Positions 5,596 to 47,900 of a stretch of DNA of 64,000 nt are shown one piece after another. The stretch spans positions 1-64,000 of the forward strand of contig NW_013654648.1 of assembly GCF_000499385.1 (NCBI RefSeq), in the 5' to 3' direction. The DNA comes from Eimeria necatrix (Eukaryota > Apicomplexa > Conoidasida > Eucoccidiorida > Eimeriidae). Below the pieces are notes generated by a model. It was not told the origin of the DNA. It searched no databases and was given only the letters and a program-made list of their open reading frames with translations. Every line of letters starts with the position of its first letter. Positions within the stretch are counted from its first letter, which is position 1. The position numbers and the translations under genes were made by a program.

Positions 5596-6295
5596 ATGAA
5601 GCTTCAAGACCAGGAGCCGCTGCAGGGACGCACGCGCAGCAGCAGCACCAGCAGCAACAGCACGATGCAGCAACTGCTTTTTGACCCCTTTTGCCCCCAC
5701 CCCCTTATTATTCTTACAGGAGCAGGTAGACTAGCGGTCGACGAAGACATGCTGCTGCTTCTGCTGTTTGTGGCATTTCAGCAATTTGTCCAGCTGCTGC
5801 TGCTGCTGCAGTTATTGGCTTTCTTGATTTTGGTGCTGCCCTCGCAGCGTGAGCTAGTGTGGCTGCTTCTACTGCTGCTTTTGTTTGTTTTAACTTGCTG
5901 CAGGGCTCGGCAGCAAAAGCGGAATCCCCTTGTACCGGAAGCAGCAGCAGCAGCGGCAACGAAAGCAGCGTTTTCCCAAGGGGACGCAGCAAACAGGACC
6001 TTATTCTAAGCGAGGGCAGCAGCAGCAGCAGCAGCAGCGCGTGTCATCTTCAGGCGTATGGGGAGCCTTTAGCTCGGATCAGGCAACAGTAGCTAAAGCT
6101 TTGGAGTCCCCTGCTGACTGGTCAGCTGCAGCACCTACGGCTGCGACATCTGCTGATGCAGCTGCTGTGCCTGCTGCGGCTGCTGCTGCTGTTCAGCAGC
6201 AGCCGCCGCAGCAGGTAGAGCAGCTGCCGCTGTTTCACTTTCGCCAGTTTGAATCGCTGCAGCGCTGCCCTGTGCTGAGCATGAGTGCATTCTTG

Positions 6296-6334
<39 letters not shown>

Positions 6335-8590
6335 TGTTGCATCAGGATGACGCGCTTTTGGTTTGCAGCACACCCTCCTGGACTGTACGCTCAGTCCTTC
6401 CCGTCGCTGTCGCATTTTGTGTTGGCGCTGCTGCTGCTGCAGCAGCCAAAGCGGTTGCTGCTGCTGACACAGAACGTAGACAACTTGGAGCGTTATGCGC
6501 TGCTGCTACTGCTGTCTCTTTTTGCTGCACCCGAGTCTGCCCTTCGCCCTTTTTCGCCGCAGCAGAACCACCTCAGCGGAGAACAGCAGCAACAAAGTTT
6601 TGAACGGAAGGGCCCCAAAGAGCAGCAGCAGCAGCAGCAGCAGCAGTGCTGTCTCGTTACTATGGAGAATAAGCTTCTTGCTGCGGTACGAGCCGCTGCA
6701 GCACCTGGTGCCTTTGTTGACCCAAACACTGCTGAAGCAGCAACAGTAGCAGCTGCAGCAGCATCAACTGGGTCCATGACCGCTGCTGCTGCTGCGGCTG
6801 CGTTTCCACTGAATTATTCTTTATTTCATCTGCCTTCGTTCCTTCCGCTCGTTGAACTGCACGGGAACGTGTTTTTCTTTAGATGCATTGGCCATATGCA
6901 GCAGCAGCAGCAGCAGCAGCAGCAAAAGCCTGCTGCATGCCCTTTTCAGTTCGACGCAGCATTGCACCACACTCAAGTCCTGTGGGTTTCCATAAGTGAA
7001 AAAGACGGCAAGGTTGTTCAAGCAGCTACTCCGTTTACCTCAGGAGCCGCAGCAGGAGCAGCAGCGGTGGAAGCAGCAGCAGCTGCATCGGGTGCAGCAA
7101 AAGGGTGGCGTCTACAGCCAGCGTGTCCTGCATGCGGGAGCTGCTGTCTGCCTCTGTGTCTCCTTTTTGATGAGTGCCTTTTTTCTCCCCACGCGGCATT
7201 TGCTGCTGAAGGTTTCAACAGAGCATTGCTGCTTGCTGCTTCCGCTGCTGCTGTTACGGGCAAGTGCGGCGCTGCATCTGCCACAGCAGCTGAAGCAGCT
7301 GCAGCTCAAGGATTGTTTGACCCTAGCTTTTTGCTGTTGCAGCCAGACCAGCAGCAGGCGCTTGCACCCCGGCTAGCTGAGCTACAGTGGCCGTCAGTGC
7401 ATGGCGTCTTGCAGCAGCGGGCTGCTGCTGCTGTTGCTGCTGCTGCTAGCGGTGAACACGATCCGCCGTCTGCAGCAGGGACCTCCCCAAAAGACTCTGT
7501 TGCACTCGTCAAGAAACAGCAGCTCGTGACACATTGTAGCACCTGCCATTGCTGCTCCGGCGACTGCACTAGCACAAGCAGCAAGTGCTGCGCTGCTGCT
7601 GCAGTCCACCTCACATGCAGGGGTGGCGCTAGGTGTACATGCAGTATCTGTTGCTCTCCCGGCTACTGGCTGCTGCCCCGTTGCGGTGCAAGCAAGGCAG
7701 CAGCAGAAACTGCTGTTGCTGTTGCTGAGGCCGCAGCTGCTACGGACCACAATTCCGGAGAGGCTGGCCGCTCGGCTGCTTCCAGCTGTCCAACCAGCAG
7801 CAGTGGCAGTAGAAGCAGCAGAAAGGAGTGGGTGCCAGGTGCACCCCCTGTTGCTTTGCTGCTGGGAACTTCCTTAACCACGGCCAGCAGTGACTGGCTG
7901 CTGCTGCTGCTGCAGCAGTTCGGAGGAGAGGCGTTGGCCGTCAACAATGGTGACGGGCCTCTAGATGTGTGCTTCGATTTTAATGTGGCGCAGCAGCAAG
8001 TCCTCATTGACACGGGCAAGGCCGTTGTAAAGGCCGCTTTATTGCTGCAGCAAGAGCAGCAATTAGGTGACCAGGAGCAGCAACATCAGCAGGGCCTGTG
8101 TAAGAAGGAGCAGCAGCAAGAGCTGCAGGCAGCGCAACACTGTGGCCCCAGCACAGGTACCAGCAGCAGCGGCTGCTGCAGCAGCGCCAGTGCAGAGCAG
8201 AAGCAGCAGCCCCAACCAGAAGCAAGAGCCGCAGCGACAGCGCCCGCAGTAGCGGCAGCAGCAGCAGAATTGCGTCAGTGTCTGTCCCTGGCAGGACCCC
8301 AGTTTGAATATGCAGGGGCAGCAGCAGCGGGTGGCGTTGCTGTTACCTGCCGCAGCCGCCGCGTGCGGCGCCTGAGAGAAGACTTAGGGGATTTTCTGGA
8401 ACGGCTGTGTCCGTCCGACACATTTGGTTGGCTGCAGCGCCACCACCAGAGGCTGAGAGACGCGCACAAAGATGCCCTTGCAGCTGCCTGGAAGGCAGCA
8501 GCAACCAGTGACGCAGCAGCGGCGGCCCTTGCATCCTCTGCCGTTGCAGCTGCAACGACCCTGCAGAAATCTACCGAAATCAGCAGCTAG
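5596..8590 (+). CDS. Sir2-family NAD-dependent deacetylase (sirtuin), repeat-expanded
   Basis: Sirtuins remove acyl groups from lysines using NAD+. The first exon ends PLIILTGAG with a donor at 5726. An acceptor before 6054 joins in phase to a long exon of about 845 codons. Family motifs follow in order: TQNVDNLER (6468-6494), ELHGN with the general-base His (about 6860), a zinc-finger half CPAC (about 7126-7137), FDE in place of the usual FGE, GTSL (about 7864) and NNGDGPLD (about 7948). The first zinc pair reads CIGH, a C-x2-H rather than C-x2-C. The GIPDFR loop after TGAG is not recognisable; GVWGAFSSD stands there. Inserts include poly-Gln, poly-Ala and a run of 14 Cys. The C-terminal 100 residues are Arg/Ala-rich. 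The stop is at 8588-8590; the start at 5596 is the first in-frame ATG and is uncertain. Convergent with WDR92. Activity is likely but unproven given the altered loop and zinc site. Confidence 0.82.
6298..6342 (+). repeat. CTG/TGC microsatellite coding for poly-Cys inside the sirtuin
   Basis: An almost pure CTG tract read in the TGC register gives 14 consecutive Cys codons between the NAD-binding start and the TQNVD motif. The same tract in other registers would give poly-Leu or poly-Ala. A poly-Cys run inside a folded domain is unusual, so a short unnoticed intron or a register shift should be considered. Confidence 0.8.
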
Positions 8591-23530: not shown

Positions 23531-26500
23531 ATGCCGCGCCCGACTCCCACAGCGGCAGGGGCCCTGTTGCCTGGCGCTCAGCCACTTCTTGCTGCTGCTG
23601 CTGCCTCCTGCAGCAGATGCAGCAGCAGCAGCTGCTGTGTCCATTCACAGCCGATGCTGCAGACACAACAGACGCGTGGTCGAGCAAATAAAACTGTAGA
23701 GAACAGTTCCAGAGGATGCTGCAGTCGATCGGACGCAGCGAGTCAGCGGCAGCCCAAGCAGCAGCAGCAAAGGCAAGGGAGTCGTGTGGCTGCTATAAGT
23801 GCTGCCCCAGCTCCTGTGGATCCCGCAGCAGCAACAGACACTCAGCTGATCGCTGCTGCAGTAGCCCGCGTGCTGCACATCCAGCGGCAGCAGCAACAGC
23901 AGCAGCACCAGCAACAAGTGCAATCAGCTTTGCCACTCTCTCTTCCCGCATCTCAAATGGATTCGCTGCTGCGGCAGCACGGCATAGACCCTTCATCATC
24001 CCGGGGGTCTCACCTTCACCAACTTTTGTCAGAGCACTGGCCCTTATTGCAACAGCAACTGCAACAGCAACAGTTGCTGCAGCAGCAGCCGCAGTTGAAC
24101 CGTCACCAACAGCAGCAGCCAGAAATGCAGCAGCAAGAGGCAACAGGTGTTCCGCAGCTCACGCTAGAGATCGTTGCATATCATCCCCCAGGGCAGCAGC
24201 GGCAACAGCAGCGTATACAGCAGGGAGTGTGTCGGCTTGAGAAGCTTCACGGAGCATTGCTGCAACGTCACGGGAAGCAGCTGCTGCAGCAATGGCACTC
24301 ACAAACAGCAGCCGCAACGGCCACTGAGGCTGCTGCAGCGGAAAAGGTTTGCCGCACCAGCAACTTCCTGCTGCAGCAGAGCATTTTTCGGTGCTGGGCT
24401 GCTGCTGCGAAAGCGGCAGCAGAGCAACGGCGACAGCAGCAGCAGCAGCGCCAGCAGCAGTCTGCACTTGCCGTTATATGCCGATTTGCACGACTACATG
24501 CACTGAGAGGAGCACTGCATCACTTGAGGCAGCAGCAGCTGCTGCAGCAGCACTGGCGCACCAGCAGCGGTAGCAGCAGACTTAAGAGCGAAGCATTCCA
24601 CGCTTGGCGCTACGCCTTTCTGCCTCAGCGGCGGCGAGCCTGGCAGCTTGCTTCTATTGCTGCTTCTTTGCGTCAGCAACAACAGCAAATGCTGCTGCAG
24701 GAGGTGTGGCAGGTGTGGAAGCAGGAGCAGCAGCAGCAAGGTGACAGTAACACACTCCGCCTACGGTTGTCAGCTGCGCTGCAGCAACGCGGTCTCCAAT
24801 GCAAGGTGCTGCTGCTGCTTCGGCAATACTGCTGGATGCAGCAACGGCTTCGAGCAGCAGCAGCAGCAGCAGCAAATCGAGTTTCTCTGCTGCGCATGCA
24901 TGTGGTGTTGCTGGAGTGGCGGTCTGCTGCAGCCGCAAACTGCCAGGAGGCAGCGTCTGTAGCTCCATATCGCAGCGCAGCAGCAACGCTGGCCATTGTG
25001 CGCTTTGTTGTGCTGCATGCGTTGCAGCAGCAGCAGCAGCAGCAGCAACCGCAGCAGCAGCAGCGGACCTTAGCTCAGGCTGTGCTGGAGGCCACCAGTA
25101 GCAGGGGCCTGCCCCATCTCCCTGCACCTGCCTTACATGTCTTATCTCTTGTGCCCTTAGAGCTGCCTATACACCCTACGAGGTTGCTGCAACACGCACC
25201 TGCTGTGGCGAGGATCTTGAAAAGGGTAGGCCGGAGCTGCTGTTGCTTCTTTTGGTGTGGCTGCTGTTGCTGCAGCCCTAGAGCAGCTGCCGAGAGTGTG
25301 TTGCAGCTGAAATCCGCTTTGCTGCCATGGGTTATGCTGCTGGTGGGCTGCTGCTGCTGGTGCTGCAGGAGCTGCTGCGCAACAGTTTTCGTGCATGGAA
25401 GCAGTGGGCTGCTGCCGCTGCTGCTTTTCGGCAGCAGCAGCAACAGCGCTTGTTGCGCGTTGCTTTCGAGGCGCTAGTTGCAGTCACGGCCAGGCAGCAG
25501 ATGCTGCAGAGGCTGCATTGTGCTGCTGCAGCAATCAGCAACAGGACTCTGTTGCAGTGTGCTTGGGCGGAATGGAGGCAGCGCTGCCTCCGCTACGCCT
25601 CGTTTAGGCAACGGTGCCATGCTTTGCTGCAGCAGGTGCGCAGATGCTGCCAGCTCTGCTGGCGCTGTTGCCTCGCGTTTGCTGCTGTTCATACGTGCCC
25701 ACGAGTGCTGCAGCCTCCGTGGTGTTGCTGCTGGTGTTGCTGCTGCAGCGCACGACTTCTTTGCAGTGCCGGGCATTCTCTGCTCTGCGCCTCTTCGCGA
25801 CAGCAGCAGCCGAGGAGAAACAGCAGCAGGCGGCTGCGGCTTCTGCACTGCGACTGACGCGGCTTAGGTGCCTTTTCACCCAGCTTCAGAGGGCATACCA
25901 GGTGCATCTCGGCTCCTTACCTGCAGCAGCAATTACTGGCTGACTAGCTAGCTAGCTAGCTATCTGGCCGTTGTTGTCTTGAAACACTTGTAGTTGCTGG
26001 AGATTTGCCTCAGGCGCGTCGCCACGCTGCTGCTTGCAACGAAGCAGCTTCCTTGCTTCAACAGAAGCACTTGCTGCGCCGCGCTTTCTGGTCCCTCAGA
26101 GAGAATGTAGGGTGAGTTTGCTGCTGCTCCAGCATCGCCTGCTTCTGCCCTTAACTGCCTGCTGAATCTTCTTATCCTGCGTTGCTTTTAGTTGATATGC
26201 AGCTGCCACAGCTGCTGCTGCTTCTTGCGTGCAGAGAGGCAAAGAAGCTGCGAGAGGCCCGACTGGTCTGCCAGCAAGTGCAACGGCGGCATGTGCTGCG
26301 CTTGTGGTGGGTACTGGCGGCTTCTGCTACTGCGCTGCAGCAGATGGGTTTGCTGCTGCAACAGCGGCGGGCGCAGCAACAACTGAGATCACTCTTCGCA
26401 CTGTGGAGAGCAGCGGAGAAACACCAGAAATACCTGCGGGAACAGCAAGCCGCCCTGCAGCAACGGCGGCAGCAGCTGATGCAGCAGCACTACTTCAGCC

Positions 26501-29500
26501 TCTGGAGGCAGCGACAGCAGCAGCGCAAGGTAGCGTCAGCAGCGGCGCATACGCTTGCCGCATGCTTGGGGCGGCTTTTGCTACGCAGTGCGTGGCTGTT
26601 GTGGAAACAGGCTGGGAAACTACAGAAAAGTGAAGAAGCACTGCAGCAGCAGCAGCAGCAGCACATTGTACAGCAGTCTTTTCAAGCATGGCGGTCTCTC
26701 CTTACTTCTGTTAGGCTGGTGAGTTGCGGCCTTTTTGTAATTTTTGGTGGGCATGCTTGCTCAGTACTAAAGTGCGCGCCTCTCCTTTCTCTTGTGCACG
26801 CATTGCTACTGATTGTGGCACTCCTGCTGATGTTGCTGCTGCTACTGCTGCTGCTGTTTCTGCCTGCAGCGAATCTTGCGTGCAAGGGGTGCTGTGCTAC
26901 ACGGGTGGCTGCGGCGGATCCTCCTCGCCTGGCGGCTACGTGCAGCAACAACTTGCTGCGGCTTGCAGCTGCAGCAGAACGCAGAAAAGAGAAGACTTGC
27001 TGCAGCATTCACAGGCTGGAAGCAGCACTGGCAAAGCCAGCAGCAAAGGAGCGGCCGGATACGGCAGGGGCTGGAGCTGCTGGATCGCCAGCACCGGGAA
27101 AGGCTGCACAGCGCATTTAGCCGCATGCGAGCAGCGGCAGCGCGAAGCCCGCTCGAGCAGCAAGCTGTGGAGGCACAGCAGCGCCGGCAGAAGCAGCAGC
27201 TGCTGCGCCAAACGTGGAGCCAATGGCGCCAAGCCTTGCATCTTCAGCAGCAACTGCTGCGACTTTCGGCGTTTGCTGCTCGCTACAGAGCGCGGCTTGC
27301 ATTGCAGCAGCTGCGCGCGCATGCTGCCGCAGAGGCAGCACTGCAGCAACGTGCACGGCCGCTAGTTGAGAAGAGCAACAGGTTGCTGCTGCGGCGGTAC
27401 TGGCTGCTATGGCGCTCTGCTGCACAACACCAGCAGCTGTTGCAGCAGGCAGCAGCAAAGGTCCTGCAGCTGCAGCAGCATAGAACGCAGGAAGGTCTAC
27501 GCAGGTGTTTTGCAGCCTGGTAGGTGTTGCTGCTGCATTGCATGGCCGTTGCCGGTGGCTGCTGCTGCAGCACGGGCTGCGGCACCTTGTAACTTACATG
27601 GGACATTCACGTGCTGCTGCTGCGCTGCTGATGCAATGTTGTGCCCCAGGCGGATGTGCGCCCGCTTCTCTGCGGCTGGCCGCTTTCTTGCTGCAGTGGA
27701 GAAGCGGCTGCAGCAGCGCGCTGGTGTTGTTGCACTCCGGTTACATGCAAAGCATGCCTCGGTGTTGCTGCTGTTGCTGCTGTTACTCTCGCGAGCATCG
27801 CGTATGGCGAGGTTGCGGTTTGGGTGGCAGCAGCTGGCGCTACACTGGGAGAGATGCCAGCAGCAAACAGTGAGTTTGTGACTGTGTTCGCCGCCGCAGC
27901 AGCAGCAGCAGTAGTAGCGGCAGTAGCACCAAAGGGGGCACACGCACAGAGGGCCCAGCAGCGGCGTGCTAGGCGTGTTTCTGCGTTTCATGCGCTCCTA
28001 TACAGCTACAAGCTGCTGCCGCGGTGAGACGGCGTAAAAAAGCATTGCTTCTCCAGGTGCTTGCGGCGTGGAGAGACCAGCTCCAAGTGAGACGACAGCT
28101 GCAGCAGAGGAAGCAGGAGCTACGCCAGAAGCAGCAGGAGCTGCAGCTGTTGCATGGCATGAGAATGCAGCAAAAGGTGCTAGTTGCTTGGCTTCAGCGG
28201 CTGCTGCGGCCAGTGCAGCAACAGGAAGCAGCTGCAACGTTCCAGGAGAGAAGCAGGAAGAAACTGCTTTTCACGCTGCTGCTGCAGTGGCAGAAAGCTG
28301 CTGCCGCGGCTCGGCGGCGCCGTTTAGCTGCTGGTGAGGAACGGCTTTGTCGCCATAGTGCTGCTGTTGCTGCTGCCGTGCCTGCCGCTCATGCTGCCGT
28401 TGCTCTTCTTGGCTCTAAGCCAGTCTGATAAACAGCGCTGTCCTTGCTGCTCCTAAGTGCACGAATTGTTCAGGTTTTGCTGCTGTTGCTGCAGAGGCTG
28501 TCCGTCAGCAGTCGGCGTTGCGGACTCTTAGGCTAGTTTTTTCTCGCTTGAAGAATAGGGCGCGGCGGCAGCAGGTGCTGCGGCTGCGGCTGTTGCATGC
28601 CCTGCTGTTGCTGCCGCTGCAGCTGCCGCTGCTCCCTGCTACGACGAGAGCTGCAACTGAAACAGCAAACGCAGATGCCGCGCGTGCTCACCTGCCCCTG
28701 CCACTAGTTTCCCGTGCACTGCTGCAGTCTCTTGCTGGCGAACTGTCTTTGTCCGGACCAGACCCGCAGCAGCAAGAGCAAGAGCAGCAGAAGCTGCGGC
28801 AGCCAACCCCGTCAACGGCAGCGCCTGAGTCCGCGATGTCTCTACAGCAGCAGCAGCAGCAGGAGCAAGCCCTGTGCTCTCCGCCTCCTCTGCAGCTCCC
28901 TGCAGCTCGTAGATCTGAAAAGAAAAACGCGCAAGCATTATCAGCAGCAGAAGACAAAGAAGCAACAGCAGAGGGTTTGTGGGCCTCGCAAGACTCAACT
29001 GTTGCTGATCCGGAAGACCTGTTGGCTTCTCGCCGAAGCAGCTGTGCGGTGCTGCTGCTGCTGCGGGAGATCTCTGCCACGGCAACAGCAACAGCAAATA
29101 CAGAAGCTGTAGACGCGTGCATCGACGCCTTCCAAAAGGAAAGGTGTTGCCTGCCGCAGCAGCAGCAGGTGCTGCTGCTCAGTCAGTCGGTGCTGGTGCA
29201 GCAAAGTGACCCTGACTTGAGCAGCGCTTCTGAGCAGCAGCAGTATGACGCCTACAGTAGCAGCAGCACTCAGTGGAAACTGTCACTGCCTCAGGGACTT
29301 CTGGCAGCAGCTTGGCACTCTGTCCGGGTGGTTCGGCGCTGCTTCTGTTTGTGGCGTCAGTATAAAACAGCAGACTTGCTACGGCGGCAGCAGCAACAAC
29401 AACAGATGCTGCTGCTGTGGCAGAAGCAAAAGCAGCTGGTGCAGCGGGACACATGGCACGCTTGGCGCAGCATATGGCAGAAGCGCGTACGCGCTGCTGC

Positions 29501-32500
29501 TGCTGCGGCGCAGCAGCTATCACTGTTGCTGCTGCGGCGGTTATTCACTAGCTGGCATGTTTTGGCCCACCCCCGCGTGAAGCGTTGTGCTGCTGCTATT
29601 TCAATTGTGCAGAAGCAGCAGCAGCGTTCCATTTGCACAGTGGCTCTGACTGCTTGGAGGGAATGGACCACGTGCGCTCCCACGCCTATCTCCATTAGCT
29701 TGGCCCGAGCTTTAGCTTAGTCAGTGCTGCAGCAGACAGTAACTTAGTCTCGCTACTGCTGTTGGCGTTGCTGCTGTTGCAGGAAGCAGCGCCGCTTGAA
29801 ACGGGCAGCAGCCGCTACTGCTGCTTTATCGGTAGCTCGTGTCAGTTCTGAAACGCTGCGTTCGTGGACTTCTACAACACGCCTGCAGCGGCTTGAGAAG
29901 GAGGTGCTGCTGCTGGCTTGCTGCTCCCTCTGCGGCTGCTGATGCTTTGCTCCTCCGCCTGCGGCTGCTACTGCTTTGCGGCTCCGTCTGCAGCTGCTGC
30001 TGCTGTGTGCTCCCCTAACTTGTGCCGATCTGTGGGACTTCTGATTGCGCCTTTTTATTCTTGTTTCTTGGGTTATCCATTGACTGTGCTGCAGGTGCAG
30101 CGTCGCCAACAGCGGCGAATGCTGCAGCAGCTGTTGCTTGAGTGGCGTTTTTGTGCTCGCGCGCGTCGTGTTGTGGCTGCTGCACTTCTGCCGCAGCGTT
30201 TGCCGCTGCTGCGGCACGGCTGGAAGCAGCTCCGGCTAAATGTTTTTTCCAGCAGGCTGAAGGAGCAGCTGCTGCAGCGGGCCTTTGCTGCGCTACTGCT
30301 GGCAGTCAACCGACGCCGGCGGCTCGAGTGGTGCCAAGCTTGCGCCACCATTCAACAAGCCGTAAGGACATTATCAGCAGAGCTAGCAGCAGGCAGCAAG
30401 AGTGCACGATGGCCGGCTTCCTCGCGCTGCTTTCTGTGGCTAGCTCCGGAAGCGTGGGGGGCTGCAGCAGTCATTGGAGCAGCACATTCTGCAGCAGCAG
30501 AGGCATACGCAGCAGAAGCAGCTCTGTGCCCTGACTTTTGCATGTTGCTGCAGATCCGCACACAGCACGAGGTATTCGAGCGATGGCGCTTGCTGCTACT
30601 GCAGCGGCGCCGTGCTGTTGCATTGAGAACAGTCGGTGCTGCTGCTGCTGTGCTGCTGCGGCTCAACCGAGTCTTCTCTGCCTGGAAGGATCTGGCAACA
30701 ACAAGGCAGCAGCAGAGGCAGCAGCAGATACTCCTGCTGCAACAGCGGCAGCTGCTGCAGGGAACCTACGGCAAGGCCCTTGCTGGTCGTGTATTCAAGC
30801 TCTGGCTCTTGGCTTACAGGCTGCAGCGCCTGCTCCAAAGGCGAGCTGCTGCAGCAGCATGCAGGACTTTCCAGGCCCTGAGGGAGGTCTGTCTTGCTTC
30901 TCTCAAATATGATTGCTGCTGCGCAGTGGTCTCACAGATGGGTCAGGGCACACAGCAAGCAAGCATGCATCAGCTACTGCTGCCGTCTATAGGGCTTATC
31001 TTTGCAGCTTTCTGTGCCTTTGCCACTATTGTTGCTGCTGCGTGTGCTGCGGGTGCTGCTGCTTATCTTCTGCAGATAGCTGCTCGCCGGGCGTTGGAGG
31101 TGCGCTGCCTCAACGCATGCAGGCTCCGCCGTTTGCTGTACTTGTTCTCGGCTTGGAAGAACGCAGCAAAGATGCAACGAGCTGCTGCTGCAGTAGACGA
31201 AAAACGCACCCATAGGTCTGCCGGTGTTGCTGCTGCTGACGTTAGAGCTTCTTCACTTGCCGCTGGCTGCTGCTGCACCTGCTCTTGTTGCTGAAACGGC
31301 TGCAAATTCCGTTTCAGCCCGTGTGTGCTATCGCCACTGATGCTGTGCGTCACTGCTGCACTTGCTGTCAGCGCCGGTGCCGGTGCAGTGCGCTGTGCTG
31401 CTGAGCTGCTATTTCAGGCTGCTGTTGCATGCATTTTCGCAATGGCGTTGGCTCCAGCAGCGGCACGCTCTTTTGGAGCAGCTAGCTTGGCGGGCGCTGC
31501 TGCAGCGGCAGCAGCAGGTTGCTGCTACAGTAATTCAAGTACGCTCCCGCTGTTGCGCCACTGAATATTGCTGGTCCATGACAGCAGCAGCTTCACCAAA
31601 GCCCGCGTTTGCTGTCTGCTTTTGCTGCTTCAGGCTCTGCGGTTGAACGCGCAGAGGCAGCTGCAAATGCAGTTGCTGCAGCAGCGTCGACAGCAGCAGG
31701 AGAAGTTGTTGCTACTGCATGCATGGCACCAGCTGCTGCAGTCCTGCTGCTTCTATCGTCAGCAGCTGCAGCAGCGAGCCTTTGCTGCGCTACGCTTTGC
31801 TGCGGCTCTGTCACGGAGCGTCTTGTTAATTGTTGCATGCGTTCGCCGGCTGCAGCAACAGCAGCAGCGGGAGGCACTGCAATGTCTGCAGCAGAGAGCT
31901 GCGCTCAGCAAGAAGCTACAGCAGCTGCTGCGCGCAGCAGCAGGCCAGCAGCTGCAGAAGAGCTTGCACCGCGTGAAGCAGTAAGTGCTGAAGGAATGAA
32001 AAGAGCCATAGACAAATAGGCAGACAGAATAACACTAAAACAGAGCGTGGAAGAGGATGGCATGTATAGGGTGAGGTGCGAAAACACAGAACACAAGACC
32101 AAACATGTTTGCTGGTGCTGCTGTTGCTGCTGTTACTGCTCTTACTGCTGCTGCACAGAGCTCTTATGCACCATTACGTAGCTTTGAGGGCTCATGGTGT
32201 GTGTAGTGCTGCTGCTGCTGCTGTTCCTTTCAGGACAGTCGAGTCTCGGTGCAGCATGGTACTGCAGCTCATGCATCGACATGCACTGCAGCAGGAACAG
32301 CTGCAGCAATTCACTGCAGCATGCGCAGGAAGGCAGCAGCTTGAGTGTCTAAAAAGGTCGTTTCATGCATGGCAGCATTTTGCTAGAGCGCGACAGCGCG
32401 CTGCAGGAGCAGCAGCACTACTGCGGCAACTGCGAGAAGAGACAGGGCCTCAGCTGCTGCTGTTGGGATGTCTGCGAAGCTGGTGCCAGGCAGTGCAACA

Positions 32501-35333
32501 GCAACGGCGATGGCGAACTGCTACTGCTGTGCTGCAGCTGTTGCAGCAGCGGCACTTGTTTGCTGAGTGGCGCAGGGTGCTGGACGAAGTAAGAGACGAG
32601 CAGCAGCTGCAGCAACAGGCACTGCTGCTGCAACGACAGTGGAGAATGCGCCGTGTACTCTTGCTGCTGCATGAAAAGCAGCAGGAGGAGGAGTGGAAGG
32701 CATGGTGCATTGTCAGGGCGGAGAGTTTCCTGGGGCTGCTCCAGGAACGTCAGGTACTGCGCAGCTGTTGCTGCTGCTGGAAATGTGCCGCTACTTCAGA
32801 TGCTTTTGTTGCTGCTGCTGACCTTGCTGCTACGGGTGCTCCGGGTGATGCGGCTGCAATCTAGGAGTTTCGTCATATTACGACCTGGCATGAGGTGCCG
32901 CACTGCAGCGTTAAGCCGCCGCTGCTTGTGCTGATTCGCCTGCTGCTGCTGCGAGTCCTCTTGCTGTGCTGTAGCAAAAAGCAGTGCTGCAGCACTGGCG
33001 TTTTTACACGCAAGAGGAGAAAAGATTGCGCGCTTGCGCTCAGCAGGTCCAGCAACGGCAGCAGCAACGCGCCCTTCGGATATTTTTCCAGCAAATGGTC
33101 TCAGCTGCGGCAAAAGGCCAGCAGCTAGGCGTTGCTGCTGCAGCAGTGGAACAAAGACACCGTCGTCTGCTGCTGCGCACTTTTTGGAGTCACTGGTTTT
33201 CTTTGTCCCGTTATGCAAAGGCAGCTAGCGCGCTGTTGCAGCACTTCTTTATGCTGCAACAAATCCGACAACTAAGTGAGACTAGTGCTGCAAGAGCTCC
33301 AACGGCACTTGTTGCGTCTCTGCTTTGGCCAGTCCGTGTCAATTAGACAGCGATCCTTGTCTGTTGCAGCGGCGTGGTCACTGCTGTAGCTGCCCCCGCT
33401 AGGCATTTCATTTGCTGCAGTGCCTGCATGCTTGTGCAGATCGTGTGGTGTCCTTTTGGAAAGGCTACGCTGAGCAAAGTCGCAGGCTTCGGACAGCAGC
33501 AGCTGAGCTGCAGCAGCGGCTGCAGCAGAAGCAACAGCTAGCTACTGGTGTCTTGCTGGAGCGTGTGATGCGGGAATGGCAAGGCCTAGCCTTGCAGCGT
33601 CAACAGCGGCGCCAAGCAGCACAGCAGCGGCTGCAGCGGCAGTTGCTGCTGCGACATCAGCAACAAATGAGGAAGTTTCTAACGTATTGGAAGGTTGCAG
33701 CAAAACACAGGGCTGCTGCTAGACAGTAAGTCTTGTGTTGGTTAATTGCCTGTTCTTGCTTCTTCTAGCGGTGGTAGACCTGCTGTTGCTGCAGTCGCTG
33801 CAACACATAACTCTACTCTGTGGCGCTTTGGCTCTCAGGGCTGTGCTGCAGCGCATTGGAGCGTTCCATCACCAGCAACAGCAGCAACAACAGCAACACC
33901 TGCTGGGACTGCCGCACCCCTCCCAGGCTCTCAGGAGGCGGGCAGCTTCCCTGAGCAGCAGCAGCAGCAGTAGCCGCAGGAGCACCAGCAGCAGCCGCAG
34001 GAGCATCAGCAGCAGCCGCGGCAGCAGCACCAGTGGTAGCAGAGAAGCCCTGTCTATGCCGGGCCCTTCGCAGCGGCTCAGGTGGAGGGACGAAGGGAGA
34101 CCCGCAGCAGCAGCGACAGCAGCAGCAGCAGACGCATCTGATGATGCATTGCCAGAGCTGGCGCCCACAGTTCCACGCCAGCAAGAGCAGGCACAGCAAC
34201 AGCAGCTGCAGGATGAGGCTTTGAGTCTCTCCTTCTCCCGCCAGGCTTTTCTTTCCCACTCCCAAACCTCTGAGCAAGATGTGCTAGTGCAGCAGCGGTG
34301 GCGGCAGCAGCTGCAGCAGGAGCAGCAGACAGAGCCACGCCTTTTCAAAGCAGAGGCAGCGGGCGGGGACCAGCAGCAACAGCAGCAATCGCAGCAGCAG
34401 CAGCAGCAGCAGATGTGGCTTCACAGTCCTGCCCTGCCAACCGGTTCGCTTCATCTTGAGGACTTGAAGGAAGAGGGCGAGCCCATGCAGGAGGCAGCAG
34501 CCATGTATGCGGGTGCTGCTGCGGCTGCGGCTCCGCTACATGAGGAGCCACCGCAGCACCACTCCGGCCCACGACCAAATAGCAGCAGCAGCAGCACCAA
34601 CAGCAGCAATACAGTTTCGCCCCCTCGCCGGCGCAGTAGCCATCTTCCTTTCAGACAGATGCACCCAGAAATATTTGATAGCAGCGGCAGCAGCAGCAGC
34701 GTTAGAGGGACTGATAGTAGCCGTTGGCGCAGCAGCCCTGGCAGCGGGTCTTTGCTGGATGACGCAGCAAGTAGCAGGGGCAAACGGCAGCAGCTGCTGA
34801 GCGTATCTATGCGCCGCTCTCTGAGCACGACCAGCGCAGGGCGACGAACCTACAACAATAGCAGCAGCCCCAGCGGCCAGCGTCGCGAAAGAAGCAGGGC
34901 GCTCAGTGACACCAGCAGCCAAACAGTGAGGCGGCGCAGCATCATCAGCAGCAGCAGCAGCAGGAAGAGCAGCAGAAGCAGCAAACGCAGCAACAGCGAT
35001 AGCAGCAGCGACGAAAGTGGTGATGACTTTGTTCGCACTGCAGTACTGCCTCCGTCCCCCTACTCTGTTGCCCCCAACGAGCTGCTGACACAGCGCAAGT
35101 CTTTACATGCTCTGGTGCAGCAGCAGCTGGAGCGGCGACGACAGAAACAGTGGCAGGGGCAGCCACAACAGAAAGAAAGCCCTGACGATGCAGCTTCGCA
35201 TGCGGACAGTGAGCAGTTGCTTCGTAGAGCGTGGGAGGGAGATTTGCAGCAGCAGCAGTTGCTGCTGCAACTGCGGCGAGAAGTGAGATCAGCAGCAGCA
35301 GCGAGTTCGCCGCAACAAAAAACCAGCCCCTAG
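23531..35333 (+). CDS. Giant SFI1-like centrin-binding repeat protein
   Basis: SFI1 proteins form long filaments that bind centrin at each Trp-centred repeat in centrosomes, spindle poles and basal bodies. More than 30 repeats of the form (L/F)xxW(R/K) spaced about 25-40 residues run through successive exons. Examples are AFHAWRYAF (24594), FRAWKQWAA (25388), LFALWRAAEKHQ (26396), FSLWRQRQQQ (26494), WLLWKQAGK (26596), FTGWKQHW (27012), FCLWRQYKTAD (29345), FERWRLLLLQRR (30572), FSAWKDLATTR (30676), FKLWLLAYRLQ (30797), FHAWQHFARARQR (32364), FAEWRRVLDE (32560) and FLTYWKVAAKH (33676). A spliced exon near 26010-26111 adds LLRRAFWSLRENV. About fifteen exons are inferred; most boundaries are approximate. 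The last exon (about 33820-35333) lacks Trp repeats. It is Ser/Arg-rich with RSRALSDTSSQ and ends at a TAG at 35331-35333. The first ATG used (23531) is a guess. It would bind centrins at spindle poles and gamete basal bodies. Confidence 0.87.
25944..25962. repeat. CTAG microsatellite in an SFI1-like intron
   Basis: Nearly five CTAG units follow the end of the exon frame at about 25857-25943 and precede the exon at about 26010. The repeat is palindromic on both strands. It resembles the AGCTAGCT-rich flanks at 35650-35900, 50085-50110 and 53220-53580. Confidence 0.85.
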
Positions 35334-44200: not shown

Positions 44201-44970
44201 GTCGTGAATACCCTGGAGGCGCCGTGGTTCTTGCTGCTTTAGCTGCTGCCGCGGCTGCTGCTGCTGCCGCTAATTGTGCAGCTGCGGCTGCGGACACTGT
44301 GTCTGGCTCATACACCTGAACAGCGGTTGCTGCAGCGGGTGCTGTTCTTGCTGCGGCTGCTGCTGCTCTCGCTGTTAGTGGCCCCGGTGATCCCCGTGAC
44401 TTTCCTCGTGAGCCTCCACCTGTTGGTGTTGCTGTTTTAGTTGCTCGCGTTGTTGCTGGAACCGCATTTGTTGGGCCAGTGTTGCTGCTATCGATCTGCC
44501 AGTTGGTGCTGCAAGTATCCCTTTTGCTCCCGCTCCTACCATCCCCCCTGTTGCTGCAGCCGTCCCTTCTGCCAGCTTCTGTTACAGCTGAGCGCCGTTT
44601 TGTTGCTGTCGTTGATTGCCTGGCGCTAGACTGTCGACGGTCATAGCTCCCACATGCTGCACCCTAGGCCTCACATCGGAAATTGTAGTCCCTACACCCT
44701 AAGCCATATGCCTTGAGTGGTAAATTTTCTTTCCAGCCCCACAATTCAAGTCCTTGAGCTCACTTAATTGTTTGTAGCTGCTGCCCTGGCTCCTGGCTGC
44801 TGAAGAGGCGCTGCCGACGGGGCCCCCAGGGAGGAGAACGGGCCCCTCATGCTGCTCGCTGGTGTAGCTCTTTGGGCTTCCAGTTCCTATTCGCACATTT
44901 TAGGGTGGATAAAAAGCTTCCTAAATATTTATTGGGCTCATTTCATTTGTGTTTCACTGGAAAGACGAAG
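44201..44970. other. Divergent spacer, RAD1-like / glucosidase II; candidate signal-peptide exon
   Basis: The spacer serves two divergent genes. A plus-strand frame from ATG 44188 to a TGA at 44317-44319 encodes REYPGGAVVLAALAAAAAAA then AANCAAAAAD. This is a short charged start followed by a long hydrophobic run, which could be the signal peptide of the ER enzyme encoded downstream. No splice join to the exon at 44971 was proven. The remainder is CTG-rich, with an A/T-rich patch at 44700-44960. Confidence 0.35.
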
Positions 44971-47900
44971 ATGGAGCATGAGACAGAGAAGGAGTCAGTC
45001 TTCATCACCCGCGCAGCCGAGTCGCCCTTCTGTTACAGGTTTCAGCTGTACACGCAGCTGCTGTTGCTGCTGCAGCAGCAGCACCGTCAACAACAGCTGC
45101 AGCAGCAGCAGCAGCTGAACAAGCAACAGCTTCAGGTTCCCATGCCGTTTCTTGCGCTGTATAGGGCCGTCCCAGAGAGCCTCCGTCTCTTTGTCAAGCA
45201 GTCGCAACAACAACAGCAGCAACATCAACAGCAACAACAGCAGCAGCAGCAAAAGCAGCAAGAGACTCAGGAAAGGGAGGAACTGAACAATGAGTGGACC
45301 TTCTCCATGACAATTCGCCGCCACAGCGATGGTCTCCTACTTTTGCTGCAAGTGGCTGTCTATACGCCTGGTTTCATCCGCCTCCGGCTCTCAGAGCATG
45401 TGGAGCGGCAGCGGATTGAGCAGCAGCAAGAGCCCCGGCACTTCGTTGCAGAGCTGTTGCTGGACCGGCAGCAGCTGCTGCAGCAGCTTGTGCCGACATG
45501 TTGTGTGCAGCAGGAGATAGACAAGACGCTCATCGTCGCAGAGTGCATACCCCCAACTGCATCAGCGGCAGCATCAGCTGCGAAAGCACACTCTTCTGTT
45601 GCCGGTGCTCCAGCACCAGCGGCAACAGGACAAAGAGCTGAGGCAGCTGCAGCAGCAACAAACCTGGATTGCAGCGCTCAGGACGCCCTCAGTTCAGAAT
45701 GGCTGCAACACGGGATCTGCAGCAACACATCAAAGGCATCATCGGGAGGAGGGGCACAAGTTGCAGCAGAAGCAGCCCGACACACCTCCGACGCCCCCTG
45801 CAGCTTTCAGCTAAGCGTATGCGTTCACCATGAGCCCTTTGCGGTTTCTCTGCAGCTTAACGGCAGAGACCTCCAGCGCCTGAATGCGCAGCAGCTTCTT
45901 AACTGGGAAAGTATCGGCACTCACAGGCAATGGAGGTCTGCCGCTGCTGCAGTCGCTGCTGCTGTTAACCCTAACAAGCAACACCAGCAGCAGCAAGTGC
46001 AACTGGAGTCCCACGGCGCACTGAGAGCTACGGCGTTAAAGGCTGGCACCTCAGAAGATAGTATGGCAGCCTTGAGGGATCCTCATGGCATGCAAACCAT
46101 CGCAGTAGCGCGAAGCTCAGCGGAAATATCTCACATGGCTCATAGAGTACACGCAGCAGCAGCAGAGGAAGCAGCGGCAGAAGCAGCAACTTTGAAAGCA
46201 GCAGCTTCCCATGCAGCGGCAAAGGCTGCAAGAGCAGCAGCAACAGCAGAAACGGCAGCACATTCAACTTTGGATGAAGCAGCACCGGAGAAAAGGAAAA
46301 GAGCAGCTGCAGACGCAGCTGGCGCAACAGCAGCTGCTGCGGCCTCAGCAGTAGGTGCTGCAGCCCTGGGAGCAGCAACTGCTGCGAATTTAGCAGCAGA
46401 AGCCGCAGAAGCAGCAGTAACAGCAGCTGATGTATCGCCTTTCAAACTGCGAGATGCGATAGACGTGGAGTGGAGGCCGCCAGCTGCTTCTTGCCGCTTC
46501 GCTGCTGCTGCAGCGCCCCCCATTGCTGCTATGCTGCGGACTGAAGAGCAGCGAGACGTGCCTGTGGAGCAGCAGGAGCTACTGCAGAAGTTGTTGCAGG
46601 CCTCACAGCAGCAACTACTGCAGCAAGCTATGCAAGAGGAGAATCAGTCTGAGGAGGAGAGACTATGGCGTGCATGCAGCGTCGGCGGTGATATTTCGTT
46701 TCTTGACGCTGTTGGCGTGTATGGACTCTATGAGCACTCAACGAGTTACCGCCTCGAAAACTACACTGAGCCTTACAGGCACGTACCTTATCTTTGTATT
46801 TGACTTGTGTTCATTCATAGCCTTATTTGACCGCAACAATCCGCCTCTGCCCTTTTCTACACCACCGCTAATACTTCTGCCTCTGCCTTCCTGTACCTGC
46901 TGGCGTCTTGCTCTACCCATGCCTATCTCCCTTTTTTTGCATATGTATTTTTCTGTTCATCTTTACCTCTCAGACACCGCCTGTTTGCATGTTTCCTTGC
47001 CGTTATTCCTACTGGCGTGTCTTTCTTTATCTCTGCCATTTTCCTGACTGCTGCTAATTCCTTTGCCCCCTTTCTGCGTCTATGAATGAATATTCAATTC
47101 GGCGTCTTCTGCTTGTGCCTCCTGCATTATTTGAACCATATTTGCTTCTGCCTGATTGCCTAGTTTTTCTTTCCTCTTCTCTCTGCTGCTCTCGTTCCCT
47201 TAGCTGCGGGTGTTACTCTTCCAACGTCGTTAACATCTGTTGCTACTTCCAATTACCCTTTGCCTAGACAGAAGCTGCTACTGTTTCCCCCTTTGTGCAG
47301 CTGGCTCTACTGGTGTTGCCGCTGCTGCTGCTTCCGTTACTCAGACTGTTCAACGTGGACGCCTACGGCTGGGACCCCGATAGCCCGTCTTCTCTTTACG
47401 CTTCCATGCCTTTTCTGTTTGCTACACACGCGGGAGGCTCCAACGGGGGCCGTCAGGCCTCTGCTTTCGTTTTCCTTAACTCTGCAGAGACTTTTTTCAG
47501 AGTAAACTACGAACAGGCCCCCGAACAGAAAGAACAGAAGCAGCACGAGCACCAGCAACGGCAGTGGCAGCAGCAGCAAGAAGGCGTCATTCCCTGTTGG
47601 TTTTGCAGCGAAGGCGGAGAGTTCGAGTGCCTGCTTTGCTGCGGGCCCTCCCCTGTGGACGTCCACCGCCAAGTGCATGTAGCGCTGGGGCTGCCCATGC
47701 TGGCCCCAATCGGCGCGCTAGGAAAGCACCAGTCCAGATGGGGATATGCCGAAGAGGTGAGAAGCAGGAGGGTAGGAAGAAACAGGCAAACTGAAAGGTG
47801 AAAAAATGCAGCCAAAACGGATAGAAACACGCAAACCGGCAGCCAGACAGACAGAAATACAACCAAAAAGAACAAGGCGGGGAAAGCAAACAGAGAAACC

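Follow-up and report, generated by a model that had tools for sequence, protein, structure and literature searches.

A giant SFI1-like gene in Eimeria necatrix with two tryptophan-repeat arms separated by a conserved block

A single SFI1-like gene occupies positions 23531..35333 on the plus strand of the window, the whole 64-kb stretch of Eimeria necatrix DNA analysed here. The gene is real but largely expected given Toxoplasma SFI1, and one unusual feature of it is a conserved non-repeat block that lies between two arms of Trp-centred repeats. We regard the locus as very probably the eimeriid orthologue of Toxoplasma SFI1 (TgSFI1), an assignment that draws on architecture and motif rather than on alignment and that is held with less certainty than membership of the SFI1 family.

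An earlier note, made from the sequence alone, had placed one multi-exon repeat gene at these coordinates, and both ends agree with it: the ATG at 23531 is the first in its open frame and a stop codon ends at 35333, with exons upstream of 23531 being possible. Gene models were built by dynamic programming on codon usage and splice signals, and Trp motifs were given no score. The first model, trained on hand-picked segments resembling repeat exons, had 22 exons and 2875 aa; retrained models, for which training used Cyclospora-matched segments alone and these segments received a bonus, had 17, 18 or 22 exons and 2873 to 2932 aa. Hand curation set a donor at 27519 (judged nearer to consensus), an exon end at 29671 (since the Cyclospora similarity runs on there) and a phase-compatible exon start at 33440, took over the short exon 26065-26111 from the first model, and kept the first and the last exon whole by removing doubtful introns; an intron at 34505-34654 inside the last exon is possible. 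The curated model comprises 18 exons with introns of 104 to 253 bases, and its 9135 coding bases specify, without internal stop, a protein of 3044 aa (about 349 kDa) with the following parts:

23531..25225, plus strand: exon 1, which opens with ~230 N-terminal aa lacking repeats and continues into the first Trp repeats
25369..28333, plus strand: exons 2-8, the first repeat arm, with 17 Trp repeats by the looser rule (those of exon 1 included), to residue 1267
28495..29280, plus strand: opening part of exon 9, which covers most of the region free of Trp repeats between the arms (residues 1267-1568)
29280..29671, plus strand: rest of exon 9, where Trp repeats resume (Trp at 29352, 29418, 29463, 29553 and 29664); 3' boundary set by hand
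29783..33725, plus strand: exons 10-17, the second arm, with 20 Trp repeats (those of exon 9 included), residues 1568 to 2535
33440, plus strand: start of exon 17, set by hand
33839..35333, plus strand: last exon, a repeat-free C-terminal tail rich in Ser, Arg and Gln

An imperfect tandem repeat with a 29-base unit (3.8 copies) was also observed at 29906-30014, within a model intron.

The repeats were counted against the SFI1 consensus Ax7LLx3F/Lx2WK/R, as given in PMC5112337, and the minimal centrin-binding motif [FLW]XXW[KR], as given in PMC10180636. The strict minimal motif occurs 26 times in the curated protein, compared to a mean of 2.6 and a maximum of 10 in 5000 shuffles of the same residues, and 24 times in each of the four uncurated models (17-22 exons, 2873-2932 aa). 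Because three of the boundary moves partly favoured repeats or the Cyclospora-like frame, 24 is the more neutral count. Under a looser rule, 37 non-overlapping repeats were found in the curated protein (shuffles: mean 12.0, maximum 21, n=1000). The figure of more than 30 SFI1-type repeats proposed at first reading is thus reached by the looser rule and not by the strict published motif, which yields 24-26. Per 1000 aa, the gene had 8.2 strict motifs and the other ORFs of the window 0.41 (stop-to-stop, at least 60 codons, excluding plus-strand ORFs centred inside the gene); these control ORFs held 27 strict motifs in 66,368 aa, none of them with two or more.

The same numbers bear on a reading in which the pattern arose by chance, namely a coiled coil rich in Gln, Ala, Leu and Arg with incidental Trp, read through CAG repeats. 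Such a reading could draw on the CAG-rich region, the many overlapping ORFs in the same stretch as the gene and the composition of the curated protein (16% Gln, 15% Ala, 15% Leu). However, the number of 26 strict motifs was never reached by the shuffles, the control ORFs stand at a twentieth of the gene's motif density, and the Trp residues that can be aligned with Cyclospora are conserved (see below). Contradicted by shuffles, control ORFs and the direction of the motif, the chance pattern was rejected and is highly improbable.

Since the looser rule itself selects on positions -3, -7 and +1, all 68 core Trp (residues 231-2500 of gene model 2, a pre-curation model) were examined unselected. 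Phe, Leu or Trp was present at -3 of 39 of the 68 (expected 15.2, P 4e-10), Lys or Arg at +1 of 31 (expected 10.9, P 1e-8) and Leu at -7 of 23 (expected 11.5, P 5e-4), with weak enrichment of Leu at -8 (17/68, expected 11.5, P 0.057) and of Ala at -16 (17/68, expected 10.9, P 0.037). The triad of Leu at -7, Phe, Leu or Trp at -3 and Trp at 0 was found 24 times in the SFI1 direction and three times reversed; shuffles averaged 3.8 in either direction. With i-E <0.01 as the cut-off, a repeat HMM built from the first half of the protein recognised five domains in the second, where 100 shuffles averaged 0.17 and never exceeded 1; one built from the second half recognised nine in the first (100 shuffles: mean 0.20, maximum 2). 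By whole-sequence HMM score, the first half lay above all shuffles and the second half, at -188.9, fell inside the shuffle range (mean -206.1, maximum -132.6).

ASPM is a calmodulin-binding IQ-repeat scaffold, and a protein of that type would likewise form a long helix with recurring basic and hydrophobic residues. The gene product, however, contains no IQ motif, and its four loose IQ motifs lie below the shuffle mean of 6.1; on these grounds an IQ-repeat scaffold was rejected, and we give it next to no credence. Motif statistics, Trp context and SFI1 direction, together with the absence of IQ motifs, bear out the SFI1-like identity that had been proposed for the region.

Spacing, which had been described as kept along the repeats, is regular in part: 17 of the 36 spacings in the curated protein measure 29-40 aa, 10 measure 54-73 aa and nine take other values, with extremes of 15 and 301 aa. 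For comparison, the repeat period of yeast Sfi1 is given as 33 aa (PMC5112337), and a review puts the gaps between Sfi1 repeats at 0 to 12 aa (PMC8622359). Degenerate repeats without Trp showed a weak excess (eight positions scoring >6 vs 1.7 in shuffles), with one candidate at residue 1290 of model 2, just within the gap between the arms.

Pfam SFI1 matched none of the tested exons, neither repeat arm and not the Cyclospora protein cyc_02899; run against the organism's own genome (44.0 Mb, 1148 contigs), PF08457 gave no match, and the model was silent in all 14 of 14 control genomes too. Identity of TgSFI1 itself to yeast and human SFI1 is reported as about 17% and 24% (PMC9406199). A PDB search with a profile built from all but one of model 2's 33 repeats returned no chain at E up to 10, and a PDB search with cyc_02899 returned no match. 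AlphaFold2 modelling of one repeat exon (211 aa, single sequence) gave helices at 2-89 and 94-210 with a mean pLDDT of 79; in this one exon the repeats are predicted to lie in a long continuous helix.

Elsewhere in the window, which holds 25 ORFs of at least 230 aa (some within the gene), a Pfam scan of 15 flanking ones gave no hint for 13 and a sub-threshold hint for two. These hints were to the Sir2 family for the ORF at 5894-8587 (plus strand, 898 aa; E 0.00056 and 20.3 bits against a cut-off of 24) and to the N-terminal domain of glycosyl hydrolase 31 for the ORF at 44758-46800 (plus strand, 681 aa; E 0.0017 and 19.1 bits against a cut-off of 27).

The sole relative recovered in protein-database searches was the hypothetical protein cyc_02899 of Cyclospora cayetanensis (1643 aa). 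Toxoplasma proteins and other Eimeria proteins were not recovered in these searches, one of which scored the 7975 candidates with the most words in common with the query and one of which had length limits excluding TgSFI1. In a tblastn comparison with the window (E up to 0.05), cyc_02899 gave nine collinear plus-strand segments between 24743 and 35318, with one query overlap; besides the block between the arms, these were:

24743-25222, plus strand: match in exon 1, 45% identity
25749-25901, 26864-27310 and 28012-28293, plus strand: matches in exons 2-8
32238-32375, 32487-32711 and 33002-33277, plus strand: matches in exons 10-17
34758-35318, plus strand: match in the last exon

Comparison of the two proteins gave eight collinear segments of 37-61% identity, extending from residue 399 to residue 3039 of the gene product. 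This collinearity argues against unrelated genes sharing the region, one of the findings that the earlier note had named as refuting it. Residues 1-398 and 1713-2179, the latter with seven repeats, had no significant match in cyc_02899, and these parts of the gene model are less certain.

Across the eight aligned segments, Trp was identical in Cyclospora at 22 of 26 positions, compared to 527 of 1057 for all residues (Fisher P 2.6e-4) and 69 of 155 for Gln. Among repeat Trp, 11 of the 12 aligned were identical; the aligned segments include only these 12 of the 37 repeat Trp, the other 25 lying outside. Moreover, the loose rule finds only 11 repeats in cyc_02899, and most repeats are consequently without cross-species support here; our guess is that the low Cyclospora count stems from an incomplete Cyclospora gene model. 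The proposal that Trp is kept selectively holds within the aligned segments, where its retention against a drifting background suggests that the putative centrin-docking Trp is under constraint. That background had been called saturated with CAG, which overstates it: the DNA is CAG-rich, and in the curated model CAG-type runs make up 16.8% of the bases in exons and 2.5% of those in introns. CTG-type runs account for 19.7% of intron bases (introns 25226-33838) and 9.1% of exon bases, and the strand bias of triplet runs is opposite in exons (CAG-type) and introns (CTG-type). Codon usage was one criterion for exon placement in the model, so this contrast may be partly circular.

Between the arms of 17 and 20 repeats lies a gap of ~300 aa (residues 1267 to 1568) without Trp repeats under the looser rule. 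It contains the linker block at 28890-29153 (plus strand), for which identity to Cyclospora came to 61% by tblastn (93 columns) and 58% by blastp (97 columns). The block is better conserved with Cyclospora than most of the matched repeat segments, and only one other segment is equally conserved (46 columns, 61%). The block, the core of the linker, has many Ser, Thr and acidic residues, and its structure model was poor (mean pLDDT 49). As a tentative proposal, which we consider possible but doubtful, eimeriid SFI1 might, instead of being a single uniform filament, consist of two arms carrying centrin on 17 and 20 repeats, with the conserved linker serving as a docking or phosphorylation hinge or as a mid-filament anchor. 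If this were true, the linker could let the filament fold, or anchor its middle between centrosome cores in multinuclear schizonts. The linker block is a part worth testing in the centrosome duplication of parasites that divide by schizogony.

The Ser/Arg-rich C-terminal end described at first reading is present and repeat-free: the repeats end at residue 2535, and the tail of ~470 aa, 20.6% of them Ser, lacks the strict motif. It ends in a block shared with Cyclospora, SHADSEQ.LRRAWEG. By analogy, a role for the tail as a duplication-licensing end is plausible.

On the SFI1 reading, each repeat would dock one centrin, chiefly through its Trp in the pocket of the centrin C-lobe. The centrin-coated helix would then build a long filament in the centrin-containing outer centrosome core and, by analogy with TgSFI1 in Toxoplasma, would be needed for core duplication and daughter budding, the tail acting as a disordered regulatory or attachment region. 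With this locus, the giant SFI1 of coccidia would be extended to the eimeriid branch. The exon map given here is ready for use on a gene that in Cyclospora is listed only as a "hypothetical protein". In the papers found on Sfi1 and Eimeria, the passages on Sfi1 treat Toxoplasma and Plasmodium, and no description of an Eimeria SFI1 gene was found in the literature searched.

TgSFI1 (TGME49_274000) is reported to carry 31 (PMC4348508) or 32 (PMC9406199) centrin-binding sites in 3903 aa, followed by a repeat-free, disordered C-terminal tail of 1145 residues (PMC4348508, PMC9406199). TgSFI1 and TgCentrin1 are found together in the outer core of the centrosome, and in a temperature-sensitive TgSFI1 mutant outer cores were lost and budding was severely blocked (PMC4348508). 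Seven of its repeat peptides were assayed with TgCEN1 in vitro, and the authors concluded that the repeats are binding sites (PMC9406199). Measured against these reports, the repeat number of the Eimeria gene is unsurprising; it had been presented as exceptional in a comparison with yeast only. The Eimeria protein resembles TgSFI1 in being giant, with at least 30 Trp-centred sites (37 loose, 26 strict) and then a repeat-free tail. The residues preceding the Trp are also alike: Phe and Trp occupy -3 in 14 and seven of the 33 loose-rule repeats of model 2, a rule that itself favours hydrophobic residues at -3, compared to 12 and nine of 32 at the reported position four of the TgSFI1 repeats (PMC9406199).

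This likeness in repeat number, giant size, -3 preferences and repeat-free tail argues against a different SFI1-repeat (SFR) paralogue that binds centrin elsewhere, for instance at the microgamete basal body, as does the single Sfi1 gene listed in Table 1 of the Toxoplasma centrosome paper (PMC4348508). On the other hand, ciliates, which are also alveolates, can have many SFR proteins, with 13 reported in Tetrahymena (PMC5112337), and the likeness to TgSFI1 is one of architecture and motif rather than alignment. We consider such a paralogue unlikely and favour the orthologue of TgSFI1.

Among other known systems, the Sfi1-like protein PfSlp of Plasmodium falciparum (PF3D7_0710000) has a mass of 407 kDa and, according to its authors, shows no homology to Sfi1 in sequence. 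Budding yeast Sfi1 shares with the Eimeria protein the helix of centrin-binding motifs, predicted in the latter, and the motif Ax7LLx3F/Lx2WK/R, but has fewer repeats (21; PMC5112337), and no Pfam-level similarity between the two was found. Cyclospora cyc_02899 shares the linker block and the C-terminal end, but is far shorter (1643 aa vs 3044 aa). TgSFI1, in contrast, is longer, with 3903 aa and a tail of 1145 aa; the Eimeria protein has about 3044 aa, about 470 of them in the tail. Whereas the sites of TgSFI1 are described as evenly distributed, those of the Eimeria protein are divided by a gap of ~300 aa that holds the conserved block.
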